Assembly (NCBI GenBank): GCA_947625885.1
Contig: CANQQA010000002.1
Location: 62,001-126,000, forward strand
From: an uncultured Bacteroidales bacterium
GTDB lineage: Bacteria; Bacteroidota; Bacteroidia; Bacteroidales; UBA11471
Reading direction: 5' to 3'
DNA: 64,000 nt
Shown here: one piece after another, positions 56,082 through 59,700 of the stretch
Layout of the letters: each line of letters begins with the position of its first letter
Position numbering within the stretch: position 1 is the first letter of the stretch
Notes under the pieces: model-generated
Seen by the model: the letters and a program-made list of their open reading frames with translations, nothing else
What the model was told of the DNA's origin: nothing
The model's database searches: none
Made by a program: the position numbers and the translations under genes

Positions 56082-58268
56082 ATGAAATCTCTGTATTCGA
56101 CAATTATCGCAACCGCCTGTCTGTTTTCGGGTTATCTGCCCCTTTGCGGCATGGAAGTGGACGATATTTTCGCAAGCAAATACCAAACGAAATCGGTAAG
56201 CGGCATACGCCCTTCGACCGACGGCGTGCACTACACCTGTCTTTCGCCCGACCGCACCTGCATCGTGCGCTATGCCTATGCGACGGGGCTGCCGGTCGAT
56301 ACCCTTCTCGATATAAGGCGCGTATCCGATACGCCGATGAAACGGATAAGCGGCTATTCGCTCGGCGACGATGAAAAATCCATGCTGGTGTTCACCGATG
56401 CCGAAATGATTTATCGCCGTTCATACAAAGCGAAATATTACGTTACCCGCACGGGCAGCCACGTGTTGCAGCCGCTCTCGACACGCTTCCCGAAGCAACA
56501 GATTGCTGCGCTTTCGCCCGACGGCACGCGGGTGGCGTTCGTGTATGAAAACAACATTTATGTCAAAAATCTTGCCGACGGCACGGAAACGCAGGTTACG
56601 GCAGACGGCGAGAAAAACAGCATACGCAACGGCGTAACCGACTGGGTGTATGAGGAGGAGTTCGGACAAACTTCGCTCATGGCTTGGTCGCCCGACAGCC
56701 GCGCGCTGGCATTCGTTCGCACCGACGAGAGCGGCGTGCCCGAATATTCCATGCCGCTTTTCCGCTCGAAATCGGGCACGTACGACCGTCCGCAAGACGT
56801 CTATCCCGCCGATGCCGGATTCAAATATCCGGTGGCAGGCGCCGACAACAGCCGCGTGTCGCTGCACGTCTGGAAAGAGGGAGCCGGTACGACTGCCGTC
56901 GATTTGCCCGTCGATGCCGAGACCTACCTGCCTGCCGTAACATTCGTTCCGACCACCGGCGAAGCCCTCGTTACCGCGCTCAACCGTTTGCAAAATCATA
57001 TCCGTCTGGTGGCGGTGAACATACACGACGGGTCGCACCGCATACTTTTTGAAGACCGCTCCGACGCCTATATCCACGAAGACGACATCACGTCGGCGGT
57101 ATTCTATCCCGACTGTTTCGTGGCGTTCTCCGAGCGCGACGGTTATCGACACCTCTATCAATACGGTTACGACGGGCGCCTACAACGGCAGCTCACGTCG
57201 GGTGCGTGGGAGGTTACTGCTTACTACGGGCGCGATGCCAAAGGCAATCATTATTACCAGTCCGACGAAGAGGGCGCGCTCTACCGTGCCGTCTATTGCG
57301 TCGATAAAAAAGGAAAGCGGCGGAAACTCTCCACGCGGAAAGGCAGCAATGCCGCATGGTTCAATCCCTCGTGCACCTATTGCATCAACGTGTACAGCAA
57401 TGCTTCCACACCGCCCGTTTACACGCTCGAAGACGTGCGGCGGGGACGCCTTGTGCGCACCCTCGAAGACAATGCCGGCTATCCGCTTTCCGACCTCGTC
57501 GGGAAAGAGTTTTTCACTTTCACGACCGACGACGGCGTAACCCTGAACGGCTTTATCATGAAGCCTGCCGATTTCGATTCCACCCGCCGCTATCCGGTGG
57601 TGATGACCCAGTATAGCGGACCCGGCTCGCAGCAGGTGCTCGACAAATGGTCGTCGCCCGATTGGGAGCAGGCGCTCGTGCCGAAAGGCTTTATCGTGGC
57701 GTGCGTCGATGGTCGCGGCACGGGAGCGCGCGGACGCGATTTCCGTCAATGTACCTACCGGCAATTGGGCGTTCTCGAAGCCCGAGACCAGATAGCCGCC
57801 GCCCGCTACATGGCGGCGCAGCCCTATGTCGATGCCTCCCGCGTGGCAATCTGGGGGTGGAGTTTCGGCGGCTACATGACCCTTATGGCGATGTCGATGA
57901 GCGACGTCTATAAAGCCGGTGTGGCGATAGCCCCCGTAACCGACTGGCGTTTTTACGACACGGTATATACCGAGCGTTATATGGCTACCCCGCAGGAGAA
58001 TGCCGCAGGCTACGATGCCTCATCGGCGTTGAAGCGGGCAGGCGACCTTTCCGGCGACTTGCTGATTGTCGCAGGCACCGCCGACGACAATGTGCACTAT
58101 CCCAATACGCTGCGCTACATCGACGAACTGGTCGCTGCCGACAAGCAATTCGAGATGCAGATTTACACCGACCGCAATCACAGCATATACGGTCGCAATG
58201 CCCGTCCGCACCTCTACAAACGCTTTATCCGCTTCTTCCTCCAACACCTCTCCGATGCCGACGAGTAA
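56082..58268 (+). CDS. Dipeptidyl peptidase IV (S9B family)
   Basis: This 728-residue exported serine peptidase removes X-Pro or X-Ala dipeptides. A signal peptide (about 1-23) precedes a beta-propeller (about 40-470) with the double-Glu motif DWVYEEEFG (187-195) that binds the substrate amino terminus, and an alpha/beta-hydrolase domain (about 480-728). The catalytic Ser594 is in GWSFGGY, the Asp in GTADDNVHY (668/669), and His700 in DRNHSIYG. Bacteroidales use such enzymes to feed on host and dietary proteins. Its stop overlaps the start of a DNA methylase relic. Confidence 0.95.
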   Translation: MKSLYSTIIATACLFSGYLPLCGMEVDDIFASKYQTKSVSGIRPSTDGVHYTCLSPDRTCIVRYAYATGLPVDTLLDIRRVSDTPMKRISGYSLGDDEKSMLVFTDAEMIYRRSYKAKYYVTRTGSHVLQPLSTRFPKQQIAALSPDGTRVAFVYENNIYVKNLADGTETQVTADGEKNSIRNGVTDWVYEEEFGQTSLMAWSPDSRALAFVRTDESGVPEYSMPLFRSKSGTYDRPQDVYPADAGFKYPVAGADNSRVSLHVWKEGAGTTAVDLPVDAETYLPAVTFVPTTGEALVTALNRLQNHIRLVAVNIHDGSHRILFEDRSDAYIHEDDITSAVFYPDCFVAFSERDGYRHLYQYGYDGRLQRQLTSGAWEVTAYYGRDAKGNHYYQSDEEGALYRAVYCVDKKGKRRKLSTRKGSNAAWFNPSCTYCINVYSNASTPPVYTLEDVRRGRLVRTLEDNAGYPLSDLVGKEFFTFTTDDGVTLNGFIMKPADFDSTRRYPVVMTQYSGPGSQQVLDKWSSPDWEQALVPKGFIVACVDGRGTGARGRDFRQCTYRQLGVLEARDQIAAARYMAAQPYVDASRVAIWGWSFGGYMTLMAMSMSDVYKAGVAIAPVTDWRFYDTVYTERYMATPQENAAGYDASSALKRAGDLSGDLLIVAGTADDNVHYPNTLRYIDELVAADKQFEMQIYTDRNHSIYGRNARPHLYKRFIRFFLQHLSDADE

Positions 58269-58413
58269 CTACATACATTCGCCACTGAACTATATCGGCG
58301 GAAAATATAAACTTCTTCCGCAGCTTTTGCCTTTGTTCCCTCAAAAAATAGGACATTTATACGGCAGACCGCTCCAAAACTTCGAGCGTCGAAGTCCTTA
58401 TTACGAATTATAA
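58255..58413 (+). pseudogene. N-terminal relic of a D12-class DNA adenine methyltransferase
   Basis: The frame starting at ATG 58255 reads MPTSNYIHSPLNYIGGKYKL and then LPQLLPLFPQKI, which is the N-terminal SAM-binding motif (PLNYIGGKYKLLPQ) of Dam/D12-type DNA methyltransferases. After about 35 residues it loses similarity (GHLYGRPLQNFERR) and stops at 58413; the catalytic DPPY region is missing. It overlaps the end of the peptidase gene. I infer a deletion scar of an accessory methylase. Confidence 0.72.
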
Positions 58414-58733
58414 GCCCGTGCATTGCAATAGCTTGTTTTGTGGCAAATGAAAAGGTCTAATAATGAAATAACTATCTGTTGATACAGAGAATATTCTACA
58501 ATAAGTGAATGAAACAATGGTTATACCATGAGTTGAGATAAAATCTATTTTTTTTCTTATTTGTAGTTTGAGTCAAAGCGGAAGCTGCAACGGTTTTGAC
58601 TATATATCTAATTAAAAATGTTGTTATGGACAAGGGGAATTTGTAGATGTAATTTTAGAATTTAATGGTCGGAATTATATCGTATAAAGTCGAAGTAAAA
58701 GCCGTAAAATTTTCTAATCTTCAAATTTTTTCT
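58414..58733. other. AT-rich stretch without a recognisable gene
   Basis: I see no coding sequence with family similarity, no tRNA and no terminator here. Composition drops sharply in GC relative to both sides. A small palindrome, CTTCGAGCGTCGAAG, sits just upstream at 58380-58394. It separates the methylase relic from the structured-leader transcription unit. Confidence 0.5.
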
Positions 58734-58741
58734 TATCTTTG
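58734..58741 (+). promoter_or_regulatory. Promoter -7 box for the structured leader
   Basis: TATCTTTG matches TAnnTTTG. Transcription would start near 58748, some 255 nt before the ATG at 59004. Confidence 0.6.
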
Positions 58742-58747
58742 TTCTTA

Positions 58748-59003
58748 GAATTGCAAATATGCAGTTTATTTGATAGCATTTAGGGCTATTGTTGTTATTG
58801 AGTAAAACGACCAAATAATTACTACGAACACACAATAGGCACACTAAATGCTCACGCCCTATGGCGTGGGTTGTGCTTATGTTCGTATGGGTACTTGGTC
58901 GTACCTTCTCAATAGTAAGCTATACCCACGCTTTCCTTTTAAGTTAAACGGTTGCTATCTAACGGTAATGACACTTATTGTTTAACTTAAAAATCAAAGT
59001 ATT
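58748..59003 (+). ncRNA. Structured 5' leader RNA with nested stem-loop (unrecognised)
   Basis: Four nested pairings make one long interrupted hairpin: 58792-58802 with 58908-58918; ACGACCAA (58807-58814) with TTGGTCGT (58895-58902); TACGAACA (58823-58830) with TGTTCGTA (58880-58887); and CACGCC (58853-58858) with GGCGTG (58863-58868). A separate perfect 13-bp hairpin pairs TTTTAAGTTAAAC (58937-58949) with GTTTAACTTAAAA (58980-58992), ending 11 bases before the ATG. CCCACGC (58925-58931) can instead pair with GCGTGGG (58864-58870). I cannot match it to a known riboswitch; a cis-regulatory RNA is likeliest, a 6S-like or other small RNA is possible. Confidence 0.6.
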
Positions 59004-59576
59004 ATGAAAAAAATTTGGGGATTGGTATTGCTATGTGCAATATTTATGAATGTTTCGGCTCAGGAGCATTTAACATTTAAGGGTGTTCCAATAAATGGAC
59101 ATATAACTACATTTGTAAATAAGTTGAAGGGTTTGGGCTTTGAAGAAATCACTGTCTCAGACAATATAGCGGTAGTTAAGGGTGAATTTGGAGAACAAGA
59201 TTGCCAAATAGGGGTTTATGCTAGTAAGAAAAGTAAGACGGTTCATATGGTTGCTGTTATATTAAATGAGACATCAAGTTGGTATTCTCTTAAATCTACA
59301 TACACGGAATATAAGAAATTGCTTATGCTAAAATATGGTAATGGTAAATCTTTTGAATATTTTTCTGACCCATATTACGAAGGTGATGGATATGAACTCA
59401 GTGCTGTGCGAAATGAAAAATGTACCTATATGACTGTATTTGATACACCTAATGGTGATATATCTATAAAGATTATTGATGCAGGTAACCCTTGTACTGT
59501 TCTTGGATATGTTGATGAAATTAACCATGATATTGCCGAAAAAGAGAAGAATGCAATGATTTCTGGCGACTTGTAA
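59004..59576 (+). CDS. Small exported hypothetical protein (190 aa) under the structured leader
   Basis: I do not recognise a named family. The protein has a signal peptide (MKKIWGLVLLCAIFMNVSAQ), then EHLTFKGVPINGHITTFVNK, a beginning seen in small Bacteroidales secreted proteins of unknown function as far as I recall. The mature part alternates short strands and helices and has two clear Cys (60s and 130s). The gene is very AT-rich next to its neighbours, which suggests transfer. It has a long structured leader and its own terminator, so it is an independent unit. Confidence 0.82.
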   Translation: MKKIWGLVLLCAIFMNVSAQEHLTFKGVPINGHITTFVNKLKGLGFEEITVSDNIAVVKGEFGEQDCQIGVYASKKSKTVHMVAVILNETSSWYSLKSTYTEYKKLLMLKYGNGKSFEYFSDPYYEGDGYELSAVRNEKCTYMTVFDTPNGDISIKIIDAGNPCTVLGYVDEINHDIAEKEKNAMISGDL

Positions 59577-59640
59577 AAGAATATAGCCTACCTTATTAAG
59601 GTTATTATTTATTAGGAAGACTTAATAATAAAAATGCAAA

Positions 59641-59674
59641 AACCAGAAAGCCCGTCGGACTTTCTGGTTTTTTG
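59641..59674. terminator. Terminator between the 190-aa protein gene and leuB
   Basis: AACCAGAAAG (59641-59650) pairs with CTTTCTGGTT (59660-59669), followed by a T-run and preceded by an A-rich stretch, so it can act in both directions. Confidence 0.85.
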
Positions 59675-59700
59675 TTTATCGGCTTTTTATCTCGAAATGT

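Follow-up and report, generated by a model that had tools for sequence, protein, structure and literature searches.

Transcription attenuators of the trp type are built from four leader segments that pair as 1:2, 2:3 or 3:4, with the third segment held either by the second or by the fourth, and a U-run follows the fourth segment just before the gene. In antisense-controlled attenuation of the pT181/pIP501 type a terminator can form when an upstream arm is captured. Structured RNAs described from Bacteroidota include Flavo-1 (RF01705), the Bacteroides and Bacteroidales motifs (Weinberg 2010) and DUF805 RNA (RF03081), and Flavo-1 coincides with some 5' transcripts in Flavobacterium psychrophilum (PMC9723704). 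The FopS and GibS sRNAs of Bacteroides form a multicopy RNA family ending in a terminator hairpin, where FopS consists of a single-stranded 5' seed and one terminator hairpin and acts in trans (PMC11697453). At the DNA level, integron attC sites are long imperfect palindromes with variable complementary stems that lie near accessory genes. The leader analyzed here has features in common with all of these systems and is one copy of a widespread, apparently undescribed family of RNA leaders in Bacteroidota and Fibrobacter. Judged by analogy, it would resemble the known attenuators in its way of working, as it also has four segments (A to D), of which C pairs with B or D, and a U-run after D just before the gene. 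It differs from the trp type in that no leader peptide was recognized, in the three long variable stems between the segments and in its use by dozens of unrelated accessory genes.

The window, i.e. the whole 64-kb stretch of Bacteroidales DNA that was analyzed, contains a single match to the covariance model described below. This match of about 170 nt on the + strand (58771-58940; 132.3 bits, E 7.6e-28, for a copy that was itself used to build the model) constitutes the conserved leader element. Upstream lies TATCTTTG (58734-58741, + strand), a Bacteroidota -7 box (TAnnTTTG) and thereby a promoter by consensus only, from which transcription would start at approximately 58748-58750. Downstream, on the same strand, is a gene for a 190-aa protein with a signal-peptide-like start, MKKIWGLVLLCAIFMNVSA (59004-59576). 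The leader (58748-59020) folds at -82.8 kcal/mol compared with -55.8 ± 4.7 kcal/mol for dinucleotide shuffles (z -5.8), and none of 200 shuffles folded as well. The nested stem-loop pointed out in the sequence-only reading is thus real, and its four arm pairs are all present, although their lengths differ slightly from the 11, 8, 8 and 6 bp given there.

The nested fold, a long rod (fold 1), holds three variable stems on the + strand: S2 (TTATTGAG, 58795-58802, with CTCAATAG, 58908-58915), S3 (ACGACCAA, 58807-58814, with TTGGTCGT, 58895-58902) and S4 (TACGAACA, 58823-58830, with TGTTCGTA, 58880-58887). The right arms of S4, S3 and S2 together occupy 58880-58915, and the apex is formed by B and C (CTCACGCC, 58851-58858, with GGCGTGGG, 58863-58870). 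The same strand allows a second set of pairings (fold 2), found from the sequence and from a matched-versus-mismatched partner test. Here segment A (58775-58793) pairs with segment B (58829-58858) in two places, AGCATTTAG (58775-58783) with CTAAATGCT (58844-58852) and CTATTGT (58786-58792) with ACAATAG (58832-58838); the 5' part of B goes to A in fold 2 and its 3' part forms the rod apex with C. Segment C (58863-58879) is the shared arm, bound to B at the apex in fold 1 or to D in a terminator-like hairpin in fold 2. Segment D (TAAGCTATACCCACGC, 58916-58931, + strand) provides the 3' arm of this hairpin and is followed by the T-rich tract TTTCCTTTTA (58932-58941, + strand), which in the window is interrupted (TTTCCTTTT) and weaker than in other copies. 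A perfect 13-bp hairpin close to the start codon, also noted earlier, is present (58937-58992, + strand; TTTTAAGTTAAAC, 58937-58949, with GTTTAACTTAAAA, 58980-58992), but it does not belong to the structure: it is outside the conserved element, no counterpart was seen in the other element copies that were read, and it is specific to this locus.

When 60 related genomes were searched at the DNA level, two of them, G022 and G036, proved to contain the central hairpin, beside unrelated genes; both genomes are listed in families different from that of the window genome. Alignment of five copies showed compensatory changes in 17 of 44 predicted pairs, and a covariance model was built from the window copy and four relatives. 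With this model, copies were found in 102 of 247 Bacteroidales genomes (92 of the 207 of good quality); the window's own genome has 9 copies and G022 has 31, and the number per genome reaches about 31. Many of the G022 copies lie a few hundred bases from contig ends (C597, C338, C497, C54, C319, C553 and others), which suggests repeated flanking sequence that breaks the assembly. Across a sample of the phylum the element was present in 70 of 395 genomes and 40 of 171 genera, a lower bound given the strict filters used. Public genomes were also scanned by pattern and, among the matches listed, the model matched all 80 loci that were fetched, one of them (L102) weakly and away from the pattern hit; GCGTGGG and CCACGCTTTTT were selection criteria for these loci, and their invariance in this set is by construction. 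Named carriers among the matches listed are Flavobacterium, Chryseobacterium, Dysgonomonas, Porphyromonas, Leeuwenhoekiella, Cellulophaga, Fibrobacter and others, and three Fibrobacter genomes carry 6-9 copies each. Dysgonomonas sp. 216, Flavobacterium cucumis and Chryseobacterium balustinum are carriers that can be cultured.

In Rfam 15 no match was obtained on the window element at the gathering threshold, nor on the element in 28 copy-bearing loci at E up to 0.5-1, which excludes a known Rfam family and bears out the earlier statement that none explained the structure. Flavo-1, the Weinberg 2010 motifs and DUF805 RNA all failed to match at that level. DUF805 RNA does occur beside the element, without overlap, in two genomes (L039:1704-1769 and 2668-2736; L040:1391-1459), and in L039 one of these RNAs begins about 40 nt after the element. 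Identity with the FopS sRNA was rejected since the structure differs, the element being a nested rod in front of genes. No description of the element was found in the open-access papers searched.

Covariation in the rod was analyzed in 89 aligned copies, including a few weak reverse-strand matches. Standard pairs made up 92.9% of the cells in the rod stems, as compared to 66.2% in shuffled and 33-43% in slid controls, S2, S3 and S4 contained 834 double-changed cells vs. 235, and the covariation score was 0.670 against at most 0.089 when slid. In a test independent of the alignment, the energy at which an arm pairs with its own partner was compared with that obtained with the partners from other copies (59 non-redundant copies). 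The results showed a clear signal for the rod (z -29 for S2, -19 for S3, -26 for S4 and -7 for the apex) and, in the same copies, for the second set of pairings (A:B, z -15.3; C:D, z -12.3). No pairing signal was seen for A:D, A:C or B:D, combinations that share the same ancestry and therefore act as controls; A:D, plausible as the base of the rod in single folds, was discarded on this ground. The check proposed in the sequence-only reading, homologous leaders with covariation in the arms, accordingly turned out in its favor: such leaders exist, the covariation is very strong, and the conserved pairing of the leader is supported by compensatory changes.

C is available either to B (apex) or to D (terminator), and both of these mutually exclusive pairings, C with B2 or with D2, covary. 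Directly 3' of the terminator arm D a U-run (≥6 T in 8 nt) is found in 84 of the 95 copies that were not selected by pattern. S2 and S3 are paired almost purely by Watson-Crick pairs, and the apex B2:C2 has G-U in 142 cells and A-C in 4, a count that partly stems from one inherited position and thus represents fewer independent events. Since only the sense strand tolerates this wobble, the sense RNA is the constrained molecule.

The -7 box TAnnTTTG was present within 100 nt upstream of 103 of the 168 distinct copies with enough upstream sequence (61%), compared to 6% of background pieces, and its position peaks 40-60 nt before the element; about 39% of the copies have no recognizable box in these last 100 nt. 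In named genomes the median distance from a copy to the first start codon downstream is 54 nt, and in Flavobacteriaceae a SusC-like receptor gene, identified by translated alignment and for L136 also by Pfam, is found 550-600 nt downstream. The element is thus placed between a promoter (by consensus) and a same-strand gene, and this box together with the homologous leaders and the covariation supports the suggestion made at the outset of a cis-regulatory type of leader RNA. Usually the gene that follows is an accessory one, encoding a surface or secreted protein, a SusC-like receptor or a restriction-modification function. The downstream proteins mostly lack a family; those assigned include BspA-type leucine-rich repeat proteins, T9SS-secreted proteins, D12 and other DNA methyltransferases and type I HsdM. 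Hydrophobic N-termini are in modest excess (33/65 vs. 134/367 background frames), and the downstream genes have no common pathway that points to a ligand.

A recurrent arrangement was observed around the leader in Flavobacterium and relatives (L104, L131, L137, L140, L148, L163, L169 and L176), in which a short frame on the reverse strand (HTH-like in several) is followed by -7 boxes, usually two, by the leader element, by 350-600 nt of partly conserved leader and by a SusC-like receptor gene. Other copies precede DNA methyltransferase/restriction-modification or PD-(D/E)XK transposase-family genes (L166:1378-2301, L164:1-145, L150, L158 and L100; the downstream gene of L164 was judged by sequence only). 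The 190-aa protein in the window has no Pfam family, and relatives with the element directly upstream were found only in the window, L020 and L018. A leader tied to this protein family was abandoned, since most homologues lack the element and dozens of unrelated genes carry it.

We propose transcription attenuation because C pairs with either B or D, the 3' part folds like a terminator and the whole element prefers the rod. Folded alone, the 3' part gives a terminator-like hairpin of on average -30.7 kcal/mol (-32.5 kcal/mol in the window) with an unusually long loop. The rod is preferred over the two-hairpin fold in all 59 copies and is on average 21.8 kcal/mol more stable, and termination would therefore require kinetic trapping or a factor. 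The long hairpin loop, the interrupted T-tract of the window, the distant gene in Flavobacteriaceae and the copies that have no recognizable -7 box also speak against attenuation. On balance we lean, without great confidence, towards a leader family that attenuates transcription, the rod being the antiterminator. B would hold C, and the polymerase would continue into the gene, whenever the rod zips up during transcription or A is occupied by something else; capture of B by A would release C, and the C:D terminator would form about 50 nt before the start codon. The fold might be selected by a protein, a ligand, an RNA or the speed of transcription. A:B and C:D may also coexist with parts of the rod in a knotted fold.

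A structured 5' leader without termination would also suit some of the findings: the rod surpasses the other folds in stability and conservation, and the internal-loop strand beside S2 hardly varies (loop1L, 1.00 in two genomes). The rod would then be a platform for processing, stability or protein binding, for example an RNase III site or a site for an RNA-binding protein, and C:D with its U-run would be a remnant or a partial terminator. A pure rod, however, needs neither A:B nor C:D, which covary independently, and the U-run is kept in most copies, and we regard this explanation as rather unlikely.

We consider it quite improbable that selection acts on the DNA, with the element as a recombination site that folds in single-stranded form or as a small mobile hairpin (attC-like, REP or MITE). 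The nearly pure Watson-Crick pairing of S2 and S3 and the dispersed copies with variable stems are in line with such an element, as are the location of copies at accessory genes, in the window within a stretch absent from a sister species, and the presence of copies on three viral contigs in IMG/VR. Against this stand the wobble bias at the apex, which marks the sense RNA, and the fixed spacing from the promoter box and to the start codon. The absent stretch (58262-59686, no strand assigned) covers 1.4 kb with promoter, leader and gene, and at the matching site the sister species G004 has DPP IV, 64 nt and then leuB. This difference does not end at the element and no target duplication was seen, and a MITE or REP was rejected at this one site tested. 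An integron cassette site was likewise rejected: the RYYYAAC...GTTRRRY core boxes of attC are absent, the element ends in AGCGTT... and ...CCACGC-T-run in the alignments, most copies are dispersed singly and, unlike attC, most have a promoter box upstream. Within the accessory stretch, a short frame at 58291-58350 (NYIHSPLNYIGGKYKLLPQLLP) looks like the beginning of a D12 adenine methyltransferase, with a Pfam E of 0.13 that misses the threshold, and is perhaps a gene remnant. On one of the viral contigs, 144 kb in length (IMGVR_UViG_3300023118_000008; L304:6634-6807), the copy precedes a gene for a small predicted membrane protein. The window region had no match in phage records, and a phage origin was dismissed; viral carriage is possible but not typical.

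Copies within one genome differ mainly in their stems: S2 and S4 are almost unique to each copy, and the remainder is 90-96% identical. In G022 and G178, A, B1, C1, C2 and the left side of the first internal loop are 90-100% identical between copies and D about 80%, compared with 44-49% for S2 and 45-50% for S4. Within single genomes of the window's genus the copies are 94.5-96.4% identical outside S2/S4, promoter and downstream flank included, whereas S2 is 45-51% and S4 67-73% identical. Within each of three genomes of this genus no S2/S4 combination occurs twice, yet combinations reappear in other species, in some cases at a different site. At the site that follows a fucose-permease-like gene, the stems differ between G000, G004 and G005, all metagenome assemblies in which misassembly is possible. 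At this site in three sister species (L085, L092 and L094) the leader barcodes differ, two of the species have clearly different surface genes and the third contig ends there, as if leader-gene units had been exchanged. Paired sites, where a change must be compensated, normally evolve more slowly than unpaired ones. The stronger divergence of the paired S2 and S4 than of their surroundings suggests that different stems are selected for or that diversification is in some way directed, and the difference between copies of one genome suggests selection for copy-specific folding without cross-pairing between leaders.

Copy-specific stems of this kind, near-unique within a genome where the rest is about 95% identical, would fit a leader that is targeted, as in attenuation of the pT181 type, by an antisense or trans-acting RNA specific to each copy, with the terminator available for induction. 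However, a reverse-strand -7 box downstream is not enriched (15/168 vs. 7% background), on which ground antisense control was rejected, and no trans RNA was identified; we consider this explanation very improbable. The element also differs from the pT181/pIP501 type in its chromosomal, multi-gene distribution.

Returning to attenuation, a tentative extension that we think has a low chance of being correct is that the leaders are barcoded RNA switches, dozens of them in a genome, with A, B, C, D and the loops as a shared chassis and S2/S4 as per-gene addresses. Such addresses would keep each switch private or let a matching RNA set each one separately, and surface and restriction-modification genes could then be controlled independently without DNA inversion. 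Genes for surface proteins, nutrient receptors and restriction-modification are phase-variable in gut Bacteroides. If the attenuator reading is true, an RNA regulon with multiple copies, absent from Rfam, controls these same classes of genes in a large share of Bacteroidales and in many other Bacteroidota. For genes with mostly unexplained control it would offer an RNA mechanism that can be tested directly. It also raises an evolutionary question, namely why the paired stems diverge so far while their surroundings stay about 95% identical.
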